DNA from: Chitinophagaceae bacterium | GTDB taxonomy: Bacteria; Bacteroidota; Bacteroidia; Chitinophagales; Chitinophagaceae | Direction of reading: 5' to 3' | Assembly: GCA_016786885.1 (NCBI GenBank) | Contig: JAEUVO010000067.1 | Coordinates: forward strand, 1 to 64,000 | Length of the DNA stretch: 64,000 nucleotides | Shown here: positions 54,648 through 61,625 of the stretch, piece by piece | Layout of the letters: every line of letters starts with the position of its first letter | Position numbering within the stretch: position 1 is the first letter of the stretch | Notes under the pieces: model-generated | Seen by the model: the letters and a program-made list of their open reading frames with translations, nothing else | Database searches by the model: none | Told to the model about the DNA's origin: nothing | Made by a program: the position numbers and the translations under genes

Positions 54648-55793
54648 TCAAAGTTGCCTTAGTGCGGCTTTTAAAAAAGGCCAGGTTGGCAACGAAGAAA
54701 TAATTTTTAACTCCTCAATATAAGAGCTTTCATTATCCAGGAACCTCAGCACCTGCTGAGGTTTATTTTTTTTAAATAGCCGGGTAAATATGCTCTTTCC
54801 TGGTATTGTATTGCGATATAAAATATCAAGCAGGGTATTATCATAGAATCTAAACCTGGCCGGTGTCCTGGGAATTGTATCCAAAGATTTTCCGCTCAAC
54901 AGGCAGTCCACTATTTGCTGCGACTGCTTTTGAATAAACTGAAAAGTATATCCACTGGAGGCCTTTGTCTGCCCTCCGGCTGTGCCAATATTCCATGCTT
55001 CGCCTGTAAACGAGAACCTTCTGTTTGTCATGGGGATGACGCCAAACTCTTCTTCCTTTATTTTATAGTTACCAATATCAAGAAATGTTTCTATATAACT
55101 CCTTATTGCCTCATCATATTTTTTAGCAGGTAATAATTCCTTTGTAAATAAAGTGTACTCAACCAATGCAGTTCTTTCATTGAAAGGAAGGACATAAACG
55201 AATGTAGTACCATAGTCCTGGGGCATCCTGAAATCCATCATTGTTGCCTTATGAGGTTCAAAGACTGATTTATCAGACTCAATCACCCAGCCCTTAAAGT
55301 GTTGCAACAATTGGATACTACCACTTTCATTATCTGCAGGCTTATAGATAGAATTAAAAATAACAGGATTCCCAAGTGAATGCTCCTGTCCGTTCAGAAA
55401 AACTGTTGCTATATTTTTTTCCCGTTGACATTTACCTATTTCAGCAACAACAACTTCAATGTTTGTATGATTTGAAATTTCCTTAAAACTATAGTTGTAA
55501 AAATCAATACCCCTGATCATCTTATATTGATACGGAGCAATCTGCATAACACAAGAAAAATTACCTCCAAAAAAAGAGAGCATATCCCATTTCTTATATA
55601 CAATCTCATCAAAAAAGCCATTCTCAGTTTCCCAATAACACCAGGTACGGTCATTACTTGTTTTGGGTTGTCTATCCAACAACAAAATTTTTTTATCCTC
55701 AAACTTCTTTGCCTGAATCATACGCATCAACAAACTCAGGCCTGCGCAGCCTGCACCCAAAAAAACATAATCGTATGAACTTGATTTTAACAG
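54648..55793 (-). CDS. crtY: Lycopene beta-cyclase
   Basis: Cyclises the ends of lycopene to beta-carotene. A CrtY-type flavoprotein: Rossmann LGAGCAGLSLLMRM, then RTWCYWE, and GTAGGQTKASSGYTFQF in the C-terminal half. The shorter reading starts at TTG 55760 and would cut the first beta strand (YDYVFLG). Upstream the frame is open only to a TAA at 55824-55826 and has no ATG; CTG 55793 gives MLKSSSYDYVFLGAGCAG, which fits the family N-terminus. Thus a CTG start is likely, about 382 residues. Last of the crt operon. Confidence 0.85.
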   Translation of the reverse strand: MLKSSSYDYVFLGAGCAGLSLLMRMIQAKKFEDKKILLLDRQPKTSNDRTWCYWETENGFFDEIVYKKWDMLSFFGGNFSCVMQIAPYQYKMIRGIDFYNYSFKEISNHTNIEVVVAEIGKCQREKNIATVFLNGQEHSLGNPVIFNSIYKPADNESGSIQLLQHFKGWVIESDKSVFEPHKATMMDFRMPQDYGTTFVYVLPFNERTALVEYTLFTKELLPAKKYDEAIRSYIETFLDIGNYKIKEEEFGVIPMTNRRFSFTGEAWNIGTAGGQTKASSGYTFQFIQKQSQQIVDCLLSGKSLDTIPRTPARFRFYDNTLLDILYRNTIPGKSIFTRLFKKNKPQQVLRFLDNESSYIEELKIISSLPTWPFLKAALRQL

Positions 55794-55835: not shown

Positions 55836-56345
55836 TTATTCAGCCTCAGGAGCATACTCTACTTTTTTGCTTCCGGCCATCAGTTTTTTATCACGACGAA
55901 CTTTATCCATATACTTCTTATGTACAAATAGGAAACCAAAACTTTCCCCATCCTTCTTCCCTAAATGCTTATGATGCATCTTATGGGCCCATCGGATTGC
56001 CCTTACATATGTATTATTACTTTTGGTAAACCATTTGAAACGCTGATGTATAATGACATCATGAACCAGGAAATATGCAAGCCCGTAAAGCATAATACCA
56101 AATCCTATGGCCTGCATCCACCAGATATGGTCGTATGTGCCAAAATATATCAGCAAAAAACTCGGAACGGCGAATATGAATGCAAAGAGGTCATTTTTCT
56201 CAAAAAATCCTGGTTCCACCTGGTGGTGATCCTTATGCAGGTACCATAGAAATCCATGCATCACAAACTTATGGGTACACCAGGTTAATCCTTCCATCAT
56301 CGAAAATGTTCCCGCCAATACTATAATATATAATAACGTATCCAT
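55836..56345 (-). CDS. crtZ: Beta-carotene hydroxylase (fatty acid hydroxylase superfamily)
   Basis: Adds 3-hydroxyl groups to beta-carotene, giving zeaxanthin. A 169-residue four-helix membrane enzyme with the CrtZ histidine set: HKFVMH (about 25-30), HKDHH (37-41), HDVIIH (94-99) and HKMHHKH (121-127). Ends 10 bases before the stop upstream of crtY's open frame. Confidence 0.92.
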   Translation of the reverse strand: MDTLLYIIVLAGTFSMMEGLTWCTHKFVMHGFLWYLHKDHHQVEPGFFEKNDLFAFIFAVPSFLLIYFGTYDHIWWMQAIGFGIMLYGLAYFLVHDVIIHQRFKWFTKSNNTYVRAIRWAHKMHHKHLGKKDGESFGFLFVHKKYMDKVRRDKKLMAGSKKVEYAPEAE

Positions 56346-56365: not shown

Positions 56366-56908
56366 TTATGTAATACTCTTCCTGAAGGAGTTTTCTTTTC
56401 GCCATTGCTGTATCCTGGGGAATGCTAAATGAAACCACGCTGTGTAATGCTGGGGATATGAGTGCAGCAACTCTTCTATTTCATCGATACTTTTATAACA
56501 AAAGCCCATCACCTCTGTTTTATTAAAGTCAACGCCACCATTGTATTCTCCCGCAAAAACATGATCGAATTCATATTCTGTAAGTCCGTTTTCAAAGCTT
56601 GACCTGTACACAAAATCAAATACTTTTTCAATCCTTGTATCAAATCCCATCTCTTCCTGTAATCTTCTGTGTGCGGCGCTCACCGTCTCTTCCCCTTCTG
56701 CAGGATGACTGCAACAGGCATTTGTCCATAAGCCTCCACTATGATATTTATCAATAGCCCGCTTCTGTAGTAACATCTCCCCTTTGCTGTTAAAAATGAA
56801 AACACTAAAAGCTCTGTGCAACAATCCTTTCCGGTGGGCTTCTAATTTTTCACAACTTCCGATGGGATTATCCTGCTCATCCACCAATATCACCTTTGTT
56901 AGATCCAT
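56366..56908 (-). CDS. idi: Isopentenyl-diphosphate isomerase, type 1
   Basis: Interconverts IPP and DMAPP to feed carotenoid synthesis. A 180-residue Nudix-fold enzyme: catalytic Cys in TNACCSHP, Nudix-like region EGEETVSAAHRRLQEEMG, and the catalytic Glu in YEFDHVF. Starts one base after the crtB stop. Confidence 0.95.
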   Translation of the reverse strand: MDLTKVILVDEQDNPIGSCEKLEAHRKGLLHRAFSVFIFNSKGEMLLQKRAIDKYHSGGLWTNACCSHPAEGEETVSAAHRRLQEEMGFDTRIEKVFDFVYRSSFENGLTEYEFDHVFAGEYNGGVDFNKTEVMGFCYKSIDEIEELLHSYPQHYTAWFHLAFPRIQQWRKENSFRKSIT

Positions 56909-56909
56909 A

Positions 56910-57746
56910 TCAGATCAGCCTTAATTGATTTTTAACTCCTGCCCTGAAAACAATCAATGCTTTCAGGTAGTTGGGAATTCGTATTCTTGATTCCAATACC
57001 CGGGCGGGTTTTAATCGCTTTATTTTTTTAAATAATGACAAGTAATACTTGTAAGCAACGTACACACCAAATCTTGCTTTAAAGGGCAATCTTTTAATAC
57101 CCTCATATGCAGTTTTAAAATCCGCCTGAATATCATCCTCAATCTGTCTTTTATCTTTTTCCGAGAAATTAGCGAAATCACATCCGGGGAAATAAACTCT
57201 CGATAAGCCATTATAATCAGCTTTTATGTCCCGCAAAAAATTCACCTTTTGAAAGGCAGCCCCTAATGCCCGGGCAGAAGATTCCAACTTCGCATATTTA
57301 TCAAGATTACCTTCGCAGAAAACATACAAACACATAAGACCCACTACTTCTGCAGATCCATAGATATATTCCTTATATCCATCACAATCATAACATTTCT
57401 TATCAAGGTCCATTTCCATGCTGTGAAAAAAAGCATCCACCAGTTTAAGATCAATATTATACTTATTGACCGTTCCCTGGAAACTATTAAGAACAGGGTT
57501 CATGCTTATTCCACGGTTTATTGAGTTATAAGTTTCTTCCTTAAACTCCTGGAGAAGATCTGCTTTATCATATTCATGAAAGGTATCCACAATTTCATCT
57601 GCCAAGCGTACAAAACCATATATATTAAATATTGGTGTTCTTAAATCTCTGTGAAGCATACGAATAGCAGAAGCAAAGGAGGTACTGTAATTCTCTGTAA
57701 CAATTCTGCTGCAATTTTCACTTGTAATATGAAACAGTTGAATCAT
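56910..57746 (-). CDS. crtB: Phytoene synthase
   Basis: Joins two geranylgeranyl diphosphates to phytoene. A 278-residue squalene/phytoene synthase with the two Asp-rich motifs: RLADEIVD (about 47-54) and YGSAEVVGLMC, with LRDIKAD near 175. ATG at 57746, a few bases after crtI. Confidence 0.94.
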   Translation of the reverse strand: MIQLFHITSENCSRIVTENYSTSFASAIRMLHRDLRTPIFNIYGFVRLADEIVDTFHEYDKADLLQEFKEETYNSINRGISMNPVLNSFQGTVNKYNIDLKLVDAFFHSMEMDLDKKCYDCDGYKEYIYGSAEVVGLMCLYVFCEGNLDKYAKLESSARALGAAFQKVNFLRDIKADYNGLSRVYFPGCDFANFSEKDKRQIEDDIQADFKTAYEGIKRLPFKARFGVYVAYKYYLSLFKKIKRLKPARVLESRIRIPNYLKALIVFRAGVKNQLRLI

Positions 57747-57762: not shown

Positions 57763-59241
57763 TTATTTAAACGCCTTGATAACTTGTTTAGCGACTACTT
57801 CTCCGCTTATCAATGACGGAGGAACTCCCGGCCCAGGAACTGTAAGCTGCCCGGTATAAAACAAATTTTTAACCTTATTACTTCTGCAAGCAGGCCGGAA
57901 AATGGCTGTTTGCAGTAATGTATTTGCTAATCCATATGCATTTCCCCTGAACGAGTTGTAATCATTTACGAAATCGCTTACAGAATAAGTTTTCTTATAT
58001 ACGACTGAGTCCAGTATTGATTCTCCAATATGTTTTTCCATTCTTTTGGCGATGATCTGAAAATATTTTTCTCTTAATTCCTCCGTATCATTCGTCAGAC
58101 CAGAAGCTACCGGAATCAGGAAAACTATGTTTTCATGACCGGGCGGTGCAACAGTATCATCCGTAACAGATGAAACACTTACATAGAATAAAGGTTCAGC
58201 CGGCCATTTGGGATTTTTATAGATATCCTCACCATGTTGTTCAAAAGGAACATCAAAGAAAAGGGAATGATGAACAGGTTGTTTCAATTTCTTATTTAAA
58301 CCAACATAGTACATAAGACAGGAAGGTGCCATCACTCTTTTTTCCCAATATTTATCCGGATATGTTTGATAGCGGACAGGTAGTAGGCTCTTCTCTGTAA
58401 AGTGATAATCAGCTCCGCTGATAACAACATTCGCTTCGTAATTGGATTTATCAGTTAACACTTTCCTGGCAGTTGAGCCGTCAACCAGTATTTCTTTCAC
58501 ATTTTCTCCAAAACGAAATGTGACACCCAGCTCTATTGCCAATTTATACATCCCTTCCGCTACTGCATACATACCACCACGGGGGTACCATGTGCCTCCC
58601 TTAATATCCGCATAATTCATCAAACTGTACAACGCTGGTGTGTCCTTTGGCAATGCTCCCAGAAATAAAACGGGAAACTCCATTAGTTGCCGCAACTTCG
58701 GATTTTTGAAATATTTTTCAATGTGTTTTTTTATAGAGGTGAATACCTCTAGTTTAAAAACACCACTGATAGTTTGCCAGTCCATAAACTCGGTAAGAGA
58801 AAGACCCGGCTTATAAACAAGTTTATTTATACCAACTTCGTATTTGTATGCAGCACCTCTGAGATACTTTTCAAGCTTTTCGGAGCTTCCGGTCTCAATA
58901 GATTCAAAAATTTTTTCCAATTCCTGAAAATTGGCGGGTATATCTGAATAGCTGTCATCCCAATATATCCTGTACGAAGGGTCAAGCCGCTCAAGAGAAT
59001 AATAATCAGAAACTTTTTTCCCAAATTGGGTAAAATACCTGTCGAACACATCCGGCATCCAGTAAAAACTAGGCCCCATGTCAAACGTAAACCCATCCTC
59101 CTTTAATTGTCTTGCCCTTCCTCCGGCTGTTTCATTTTTTTCTATAACAGTAACAGACCAGCCTTCCCTGGCCATAAATGAAGCCGCGGACAAACCTGCA
59201 AACCCACTACCAATAACAACAACTGATTTATCCGTCACCAC
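57763..59241 (-). CDS. crtI: Phytoene desaturase
   Basis: Desaturates phytoene to lycopene. A 492-residue FAD enzyme of the CrtI type: N-terminal dinucleotide-binding VVVIGSGFAGLSAA, the DMGPSFYWMP segment, LPKDTPALYSLMNYADI and the C-terminal LFYTGQLTVPGPGVPPSLISGE. Starts seven bases after the sigma factor stop. The length and conserved ends argue for a complete gene. Confidence 0.95.
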   Translation of the reverse strand: MVTDKSVVVIGSGFAGLSAASFMAREGWSVTVIEKNETAGGRARQLKEDGFTFDMGPSFYWMPDVFDRYFTQFGKKVSDYYSLERLDPSYRIYWDDSYSDIPANFQELEKIFESIETGSSEKLEKYLRGAAYKYEVGINKLVYKPGLSLTEFMDWQTISGVFKLEVFTSIKKHIEKYFKNPKLRQLMEFPVLFLGALPKDTPALYSLMNYADIKGGTWYPRGGMYAVAEGMYKLAIELGVTFRFGENVKEILVDGSTARKVLTDKSNYEANVVISGADYHFTEKSLLPVRYQTYPDKYWEKRVMAPSCLMYYVGLNKKLKQPVHHSLFFDVPFEQHGEDIYKNPKWPAEPLFYVSVSSVTDDTVAPPGHENIVFLIPVASGLTNDTEELREKYFQIIAKRMEKHIGESILDSVVYKKTYSVSDFVNDYNSFRGNAYGLANTLLQTAIFRPACRSNKVKNLFYTGQLTVPGPGVPPSLISGEVVAKQVIKAFK

Positions 59242-59248
59242 AAAATTT

Positions 59249-59749
59249 TTAGAAGCGATTGATTTGCTCTTTTAATAATTTCCGTGCAAAATGTATCCGG
59301 CTTTTAATAGTTCCCAGCGGTTCGTTGAGCACTTCCGCTATCTCGTTATACTTATATCCATCAAAGTACAATAAAAAGGGGGTTTTGAATATTTCTGGTA
59401 ATTGATGAATAGCCTTTTTGATCTCCTTAATCCGCATATCACTTTCTGCAGCATTGCTAACCGTTGCCTGGTTAAGATTGATCAGGTAATCATTAGGCGT
59501 ATTATCGAATATCGTTTTCTGTTTAGCTTTTCTACGGTAATTATTTATAAAAATATTTCGCATTATGGTAAACAGCCATGCCTTAATATTTGTACCCGAA
59601 TTATACTTTTCCTGGTTGGCTAGTGCTTTATACAGCGTTTCCTGAAAGAGGTCATTCGCTGCTTCTGTATCTCTCGTAAGGTTCACAGCAAAAGGTTTCA
59701 GAAAATCTGCATTGCTCAAAAGCATTTGGTTAAACTCAGGGCTTGACAT
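59249..59749 (-). CDS. ECF-type sigma factor heading the carotenoid operon
   Basis: About 166 residues: region 2 (DTEAANDLFQETLYKALANQ, IKAWLFTIMRNIFINNYRR) and region 4 (LPEIFKTPFLLYFDGYKYNEIA). No anti-sigma gene is next to it. ATG 59749 is preferred over the GTG at 59788 because the promoter lies between. Gene order matches carotenoid clusters in related Bacteroidota; presumably it transcribes crt genes or related stress genes. Confidence 0.92.
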   Translation of the reverse strand: MSSPEFNQMLLSNADFLKPFAVNLTRDTEAANDLFQETLYKALANQEKYNSGTNIKAWLFTIMRNIFINNYRRKAKQKTIFDNTPNDYLINLNQATVSNAAESDMRIKEIKKAIHQLPEIFKTPFLLYFDGYKYNEIAEVLNEPLGTIKSRIHFARKLLKEQINRF

Positions 59750-59751
59750 AA

Positions 59752-59792
59752 AATTGTGTTTAATTTTATAGACCCCAAAACTAAACACAATT
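59752..59792. repeat. Perfect 11-bp inverted repeat over the crt promoter
   Basis: AATTGTGTTTA (59752-59762) and TAAACACAATT (59782-59792) are exact inverted copies, 19 bases apart. The right arm overlaps the -7 box (59776-59783) and the left arm ends just before the sigma factor ATG. Half-site core is TAAACA. Good candidate operator for the CarH-like regulator. Confidence 0.75.
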
Positions 59793-59808
59793 AGTTGATA
59801 CGTCCAAA
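59776..59808 (-). promoter_or_regulatory. Promoter of the carotenoid operon
   Basis: Minus strand TTTG (59808-59805), 21 bases, then TAGTTTTG (59783-59776), a full match to the Bacteroidota -33/-7 form, 26 bases before the sigma factor ATG. It overlaps the inverted repeat at 59752-59792 and the -33 box lies next to a second one. Confidence 0.75.
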
Positions 59809-59811
59809 TTT

Positions 59812-59845
59812 TTTGTTTAATAATTTTATAAAAAAATTAAACAAA
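59812..59845. repeat. Second inverted repeat upstream of the crt promoter
   Basis: TTTGTTTAAT (59812-59821) and ATTAAACAAA (59836-59845) form a perfect 10-bp inverted repeat with a 14-base spacer, starting three bases beyond the -33 box. Same TAAACA half-site core as the repeat at 59752-59792, and TGTTTAA...ATTTTATA is shared by both elements. Confidence 0.75.
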
Positions 59846-60824: not shown

Positions 60825-61577
60825 TTACAATTCAGCATTCTTTATTTTACCTGTATCAAGTAGTTTTTTTAACTGCGAAGCAATATTAGCCTTGGTACTC
60901 AGTGCTTCAAGATGACCAAAATGGTGCATATCAGTACCAACCAGGTCATAATATTCTTTCTTCATCAGGTATTGGGCAAGCTCCTGAACTGATTTTCCAT
61001 AGTAGCCTGATACTGACAGGATATTAAGCTGAAACAAGCAGCCGATATCTTTCAGTTCATCATAAAATCCTTTATTCTGATCCAGGTAAATATATCTCTC
61101 CGGGTGGGCAATAATGGGCTGGTAGCCCTGCATCTGCATATCAAATAAAATATCTTTAAGACTGTGAGAAGGATAGGCCATTGAAAACTCAACTAATACC
61201 ATATTTCCACTAACTGTAAGCAAAGGTTCATTATTTGCTACCAGTCCTGCAACATGGTCATCCAGAAAATATTCAGCCGCTGCATGAATTTCGATATCCA
61301 GTTCTGCTTCTTTTACTGTTGTCCTCAGCCATTCAAGTCGTTCCAGTATTGTCTCCCGTGAATTCTTATACATATCCCACATAATGTGGGGGGTAGTAAT
61401 AATCTTTCTGAACCCCAGCGAATGTAAGCCTCCGATAAGCCTCAACGAAGTTTCAATATCCGGTGCCCCATCATCTATGCCCGGAATAAGGTGTGAGTGC
61501 ATATCCGTTCTCAGAAGACTAAACTCTGCCAGTTCCGCCGATTCCTTTTTTTTGGATTTTGAAAACAGTTTAAACAT
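60825..61577 (-). CDS. CpsB/CapC-type tyrosine-protein phosphatase (PHP fold)
   Basis: A 250-residue PHP-family phosphatase that dephosphorylates tyrosine kinases of capsule/exopolysaccharide export. TDMHSHLIPGIDDGAPD near the N-terminus carries metal ligands; others lie in ITTPHIMWDMY, HPERYIYL and VGTDMHHFG. ATG 61577 chosen. Located beside the sugar-transferase genes, as expected for surface-polysaccharide control. Confidence 0.92.
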   Translation of the reverse strand: MFKLFSKSKKKESAELAEFSLLRTDMHSHLIPGIDDGAPDIETSLRLIGGLHSLGFRKIITTPHIMWDMYKNSRETILERLEWLRTTVKEAELDIEIHAAAEYFLDDHVAGLVANNEPLLTVSGNMVLVEFSMAYPSHSLKDILFDMQMQGYQPIIAHPERYIYLDQNKGFYDELKDIGCLFQLNILSVSGYYGKSVQELAQYLMKKEYYDLVGTDMHHFGHLEALSTKANIASQLKKLLDTGKIKNAEL

Positions 61578-61625
61578 AATACACAACTGACTTTACAATC
61601 GAAATTACAATGAAATTGAACCTGT

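Follow-up and report, generated by a model that had tools for sequence, protein, structure and literature searches.

Paired inverted TAAACA half-sites as a putative operator of a CarH-type photoreceptor at a carotenoid promoter of Chitinophagaceae

The window (the whole stretch of 64,000 nucleotides that was analyzed) carries a carotenoid operon headed by an ECF sigma factor gene, with a CarH-like regulator gene directly upstream and a 121-bp intergenic region between the 2 genes that holds 2 inverted repeats (Table 1). Are these repeats an operator of the neighboring regulator, as an earlier note on this DNA had proposed, and, if so, what form does such an operator take?

Table 1. Features of the carotenoid locus and its putative operator, in coordinates of the window
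Feature	Position	Strand	Basis or remark
crtY lycopene cyclase	54648..55760	-	Pfam Lycopene_cycl
crtZ-like beta-carotene hydroxylase (inferred)	55836..56345	-	no Pfam match; context and histidine-rich sequence
idi, isopentenyl-diphosphate isomerase-like	56366..56908	-	Pfam NUDIX; name from gene context
crtB phytoene synthase	56910..57746	-	Pfam SQS_PSY
crtI-type phytoene desaturase	57763..59241	-	Pfam Amino_oxidase; synteny with crtB
ECF sigma factor gene, first gene of the operon	59249..59749	-	Pfam Sigma70_r2/r4_2
Proximal operator element TGTTTA-N19-TAAACA (putative)	59757..59787	-	half-sites 59782-59787 and 59757-59762
Predicted -7 box TAGTTTTG (Bacteroidetes TAnnTTTG)	59776..59783	-	sequence; overlaps proximal left arm
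Predicted -33 box TTTG	59805..59808	-	sequence; between elements, under neither arm
Distal operator element TGTTTA-N18-TAAACA (putative)	59814..59843	-	half-sites 59838-59843 and 59814-59819
carH-like regulator, 292 aa	59871..60749	-	MerR HTH and B12-binding domains; motifs Wx9EH, ExHxxG

Both repeats were found as the earlier note had described them, with a perfect 11-bp inverted repeat (AATTGTGTTTA, 59752-59762, and TAAACACAATT, 59782-59792; spacer 19 nt), a perfect 10-bp inverted repeat (TTTGTTTAAT, 59812-59821, and ATTAAACAAA, 59836-59845; spacer 14 nt), and TAAACA(C/A)A common to all 4 arms. Arms of 10 to 11 bp, perfect as they are here, exceed the conserved core: relatives, in which the outer bases vary, keep only TGTTTA/TAAACA and the A/T beside it. 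The hexamers begin at 59757, 59782, 59814, and 59838, which corrects the arm spacings of 27, 30, and 26 bp given before to 25, 32, and 24 bp; the proposed phasing near whole helical turns fails within each element, and only the 32-bp distance comes close to it. Together, the elements span 87 bp, with about 56 bp from dyad to dyad, and the proximal hexamer ends 7 nt 5' of the ECF gene ATG (59749). When the intergenic region was dinucleotide-shuffled, one TGTTTA-N18/19-TAAACA pair arose in 0.1% of shuffles and two pairs in 0 of 20,000. The 64-kb window has 2 such pairs against an average of 0.045 after shuffling, and 2 of only 5 exact N16-21 pairs in the whole genome are the window's elements. 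A chance origin of the repeats was rejected on the shuffle counts and the genome-wide pair count.

The proximal repeat lies over the predicted -7 box and the predicted start and the distal repeat lies upstream of the -33 box, both as had been claimed. The claim that the repeats occlude both promoter boxes goes too far, with only the -7 box and start overlapped and the -33 box, 21 bp away, left in the gap. A TAnnTT[TC]R motif was identified at the -7 position, inside the proximal element, in 57 of 61 relatives, and the -33 box is weakly conserved among them. Because the proximal left arm partly coincides with the -7 box, part of its conservation is that of the promoter. The -7 box sits at element position 4 in Chitinophagaceae; in Flavobacteriaceae-type genomes it is found at position 15 in most cases and is thus displaced, relative to the element, by 11 bp, roughly one helical turn. 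The putative operator is separable from the predicted promoter, yet it is laid over the -7 box.

Family-level searches returned 110 loci with a CarH homologue, 95 of them with an ECF gene directly downstream, and removal of near-duplicates left 66 non-redundant carH-ECF loci, one of which is the window's. All 66 have the proximal pair upstream of the ECF-crt genes, exact in 60 and with no more than 1 mismatch per arm in the others; its spacer is 18 or 19, and most often 7 nt lie between its right arm and the ATG; absence of the repeats upstream of orthologous crt operons, which had been named beforehand as evidence against an operator, was thus not what we found. The distal pair is present in 52 loci and missing in 14, and where present it has a spacer of 18 or 19 in 51 of 52 and a gap of 25-26 bp to the proximal left arm in 49 of 52. 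Within the family, near-invariance is confined to the hexamers, the A/T next to them, and the -7 positions.

This pattern bears on the alternative that the repeats are an RNA element (hairpins, an attenuator, or a carH terminator) instead of protein-binding DNA. The 126-nt strand does fold better than its shuffles (z -4.3), but the arms are invariant and do not covary, and the flanks pair little better than shuffled columns, save one base beside the proximal arm. Further, the upstream arm of the proximal element precedes the predicted start, the placement of the -7 box inside the element differs between families, and Rfam gave no credible match, the sole one being a meaningless miRNA at E 0.56. 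We rejected RNA structure as a good single-sequence fold without covariation support, and we consider this explanation scarcely credible.

The product of the carH-like gene matched Pfam MerR_1, B12-binding_2, and B12-binding, the last below the curated cut-off. Its best PDB relatives are CarH/LitR of T. thermophilus (3whp/5c8d, E ~2e-21), and its AF2 model (pLDDT 91) had full-length Thermus CarH (5c8d/5c8e) as top Foldseek matches, with Z of ~17.5-17.9 over 193-194 residues against the Thermus CarH cobalamin domain. The motif residues were located at W139, E149-H150, E185-H-H187, and G190, and the key residues of Wx9EH and ExHxxG are invariant across 22 aligned sequences; we take Wx9EH to be the pocket for the Ado group and ExHxxG to supply the lower axial His. 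By predicted fold and motifs, the window's regulator is a member of the known CarH/LitR family of B12 photoreceptors, and the same features point to control by AdoCbl and light. A second CarH/LitR-like paralogue, with 34% identity, was identified in the same genome (G000, contig 88, 35859-36647; L002/L207); it keeps Wx9EH, is without ExHxxG, has no such operator nearby, and is possibly a light-independent or class II-like regulator.

We searched the 95 family loci (788 kb) for exact pairs and identified 126 at the ECF promoter and 18 elsewhere, with all 18 of the latter directly upstream of carH, within ~115 bp. In 2 loci (L020 and L090), the crt operon lies on the other strand, upstream of carH, and two pairs precede the relocated ECF gene. 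Other families of the class, with CarH proteins mostly 34-51% identical to the window's, have pairs with a spacer of 18 or 19 before ECF-crt, before ECF-less crtI, and before carH. Among 71 non-redundant CarH homologues class-wide, the pair was present in 50 of 50 that lie beside crt or ECF genes versus 4 of 21 others (Fisher p 6e-13, uncorrected for phylogeny). In total, 92 pairs were observed class-wide against 3.1 expected from other spacings, with half-sites of TAAACA (133), TGAACA (24), and TAGACA (9).

Absence of the regulator is matched by absence of the sites. In none of 18 family genomes with an ECF orthologue but without an adjacent orthologous carH was the pair found. These 18 cases come from two sets (7 and 11) whose contigs extend 770 bp or more beyond the ECF gene on its upstream side; within the set of 11, L266 has an adjacent CarH paralogue of 32% identity, and the ECF protein of L275 is only 55% identical. 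Several of the 18 ECF promoters still show a TAnnTTTG -7 box, and 2 of the loci (L145 and L260) share genus g88 with L121, in which both carH and the site are present. A family locus with a CarH fragment (L262) is without a proper pair. We rejected L263, L264, and L274, with the site and no carH, as counter-examples; their contigs start 80-325 bp ahead of the ECF gene, and carH would thus be expected beyond the contig end.

These distributions argue against the repeats being bound by another carotenoid regulator, or serving autoregulation by the ECF sigma factor, with carH a mere neighbor. Such a reading has in its favor that the repeats precede the ECF gene in the window, but pairs also lie upstream of crtI in ECF-less loci and upstream of carH, and they are absent from the 18 genomes that keep the ECF gene without an adjacent orthologous carH. 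To our knowledge, ECF promoters are not of inverted-site form, which we counted against ECF autoregulation. We regard this explanation as unlikely. Assignment of the elements to the adjacent CarH-like regulator, as the earlier note had it, is very probably right: the sites track carH across the class and follow a relocated crt promoter, and the presence of sites at carH promoters, their absence without carH, and a TnnACA half-site add to its support.

The ECF gene without an orthologous carH (L145-L149, L151, L171, L260, L261, L265-L270, L272, L273, and L275), in several cases together with crtI, implies light-independent or differently regulated carotenoid synthesis in these Chitinophagaceae. 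The pair was identified at carH's own promoter in Flavihumibacter, Hydrotalea, and Flavobacteriaceae-type genomes. Upstream of the window's carH, no relaxed pair was found within 250 bp, and carH autoregulation through the pair was rejected for this genome. A genome-wide regulon was rejected as well, with pairs in the window's own genome (exact and one-mismatch) at the level of a backwards control (25 versus 22; 22 versus 26); since pairs elsewhere in this genome are at chance, no target besides the crt operon is called.

Published CarH operators, those of Thermus thermophilus, Bacillus megaterium, and myxobacteria, consist of tandem 11-bp direct repeats (nnnnTnnACAn) with the core TnnACA (PMC8156234, PMC9304148). 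All 4 TAAACA half-sites of the window share this core, and like the window's elements, these operators overlap crt promoter elements, with carH linked to crt in several cases. The difference lies in the arrangement, which is 11-bp tandem direct in the published operators versus inverted, 24/25 bp apart, and usually in two pairs in the window type.

We scanned for operator architecture with the published core TnnACA alone, so that TAAACA was not assumed. Across the 66 Chitinophagaceae promoters, inverted TGTnnA..TnnACA at 24/25 bp start to start occurred 93 times against 0.8 expected and the inter-element distance of 31/32 occurred 47 times against 0.8, whereas 11-bp direct repeats in the same promoters were at chance (1 versus 0.8). 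A direct-repeat operator hidden within the element was considered, and none was found. Other families gave an inverted peak at 24, both upstream (23 versus 0.3) and downstream (24 versus 0.2) of carH. Most Flavobacteriaceae-type crt and carH promoters and some Chitinophagaceae promoters carry a single pair. As many promoters have one pair only, a single inverted pair, in many cases duplicated, appears to be the operator unit, and the earlier picture of one tetramer on four half-sites is unsupported as it was stated. In promoters with two pairs, the dyads lie 42-46, 52-57, or 63-64 bp apart (55-57 in Chitinophagaceae), three clusters about one turn apart, in modest numbers and with family values that are not exact multiples; this spacing suggests cooperation on the same side of the DNA. 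Three CarH proteins with an altered recognition helix (INAHTLRKWESRY twice and IQAHTLRVWERRY once) go with half-sites such as TAGACA, TGGACA, and TGAACA, a match that is, in these few cases, consistent with direct recognition by CarH.

Because the half-sites conform to TnnACA and the tandem repeat is missing, we read the window's elements as a new type of operator for a known regulator family. CarA and class II LitR already provide examples of inverted half-sites, which differ from the window's in sequence and spacing (PMC9304148, PMC9758184). The CarA operator of Myxococcus xanthus has two inverted repeats around -35 over ~55 bp, bound stepwise and cooperatively by two dimers (PMC9304148), and it resembles the window's in having two inverted elements at a crt promoter. 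It differs in sequence and spacing, and the CarA elements lie upstream of and over -35, whereas the window's cover 87 bp, flank -33, and place the proximal element on the -7 box and start. Class II LitR operators of Pseudomonas PplR1/PmlR2 have two sites of T(G/A)TACA-N12-TGTA(C/T)A (PMC9758184). They belong to the same regulator superfamily and, like the window's, comprise two sites of two hexamers, lying over -35 and near the start in LitR; TGTACA with N12 (18 bp start to start) versus TAAACA with N18/19 places the window's elements outside class II. PmlR2 is released by a LOV-domain photoreceptor and not by B12 of its own (PMC9758184). In a study of light-induced carotenoids in a flavobacterium, a LitR-like gene was a matter of speculation only (PMC7064467), and we found neither a Bacteroidota CarH operator nor binding, footprint, or expression data for a Bacteroidota CarH in the open-access literature searched. 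As for gene order, the window's carH-ECF linkage resembles an arrangement in a different phylum. In Streptomyces, a CarH/LitR gene adjoins the ECF sigma factor gene litS, which controls carotenoid genes.

Taken at sequence level, the two inverted elements are very probably the operator of the adjacent CarH-type photoreceptor, with AdoCbl-CarH most likely blocking the promoter in the dark and light releasing it. In the dark, AdoCbl-CarH would bind the inverted pairs, cover the -7 box and start, and keep the operon repressed; light would cleave AdoCbl, CarH would leave the DNA, and the operon, with whatever part its ECF sigma factor may play, would be expressed. The double site might be occupied by a dimer, by a tetramer that engages it through two of its four DNA-binding domains, or by two tetramers.

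CarH might instead activate the operon or act as a dual regulator, from inverted pairs positioned for MerR-style remodeling of the promoter, and many MerR-family proteins do activate from sites within promoters (PMC8156234). The characterized CarH proteins, though, are repressors that cover the promoter (PMC8156234, PMC9304148), and TAnnTTTG is kept at the ECF promoter in several carH-less genomes, so that the promoter need not be helped. The 11-bp shift of the -7 box relative to the element between families also argues against activation, which we judge very unlikely. As to how CarH engages the DNA, the chances seem evenly balanced that the Bacteroidota protein acts in a non-tandem assembly, in which one unit would grip an inverted pair of half-sites at 24/25 bp and two such units, in phase, would hold ~87 bp on either side of the -33 box, perhaps bending or wrapping the promoter; such a geometry is not known to have been described for B12 photoreceptors.

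As CarH sites, the elements would provide a concrete operator code for the light control of carotenoid synthesis in a class for which the literature searched describes no CarH operator. At least two operator architectures on the same half-site are suggested for the B12 photoreceptor family, which bears on how these proteins engage DNA. For tests, the loci also offer wild-type promoters along with naturally "operator-less" ones and, possibly, AT-rich light-switchable promoters for Bacteroidota.

Just upstream of carH, the gene at 60825-61586 codes for a protein of the CpsB/CapC type that belongs to a polysaccharide cluster; an exopolysaccharide locus thus borders the carH-crt block. A CarH subclade with the recognition helix INAHTLRKWESRYSFI (L138/L215 and L141) does not lie beside crtI, crtB, or an ECF gene, and it carries two tandem TGTC..GACA-type pairs at its own promoter (upstream of carH in L138/L215). 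In the carH-ECF intergenic region of Sediminibacterium-type loci (L033, L041, L043, L048, L056, and L060), a compact palindrome, TGTTTAAACA, adjoins an intrinsic terminator-like hairpin farther upstream than the distal element; the palindrome is perhaps a third CarH site or a terminator-linked element.
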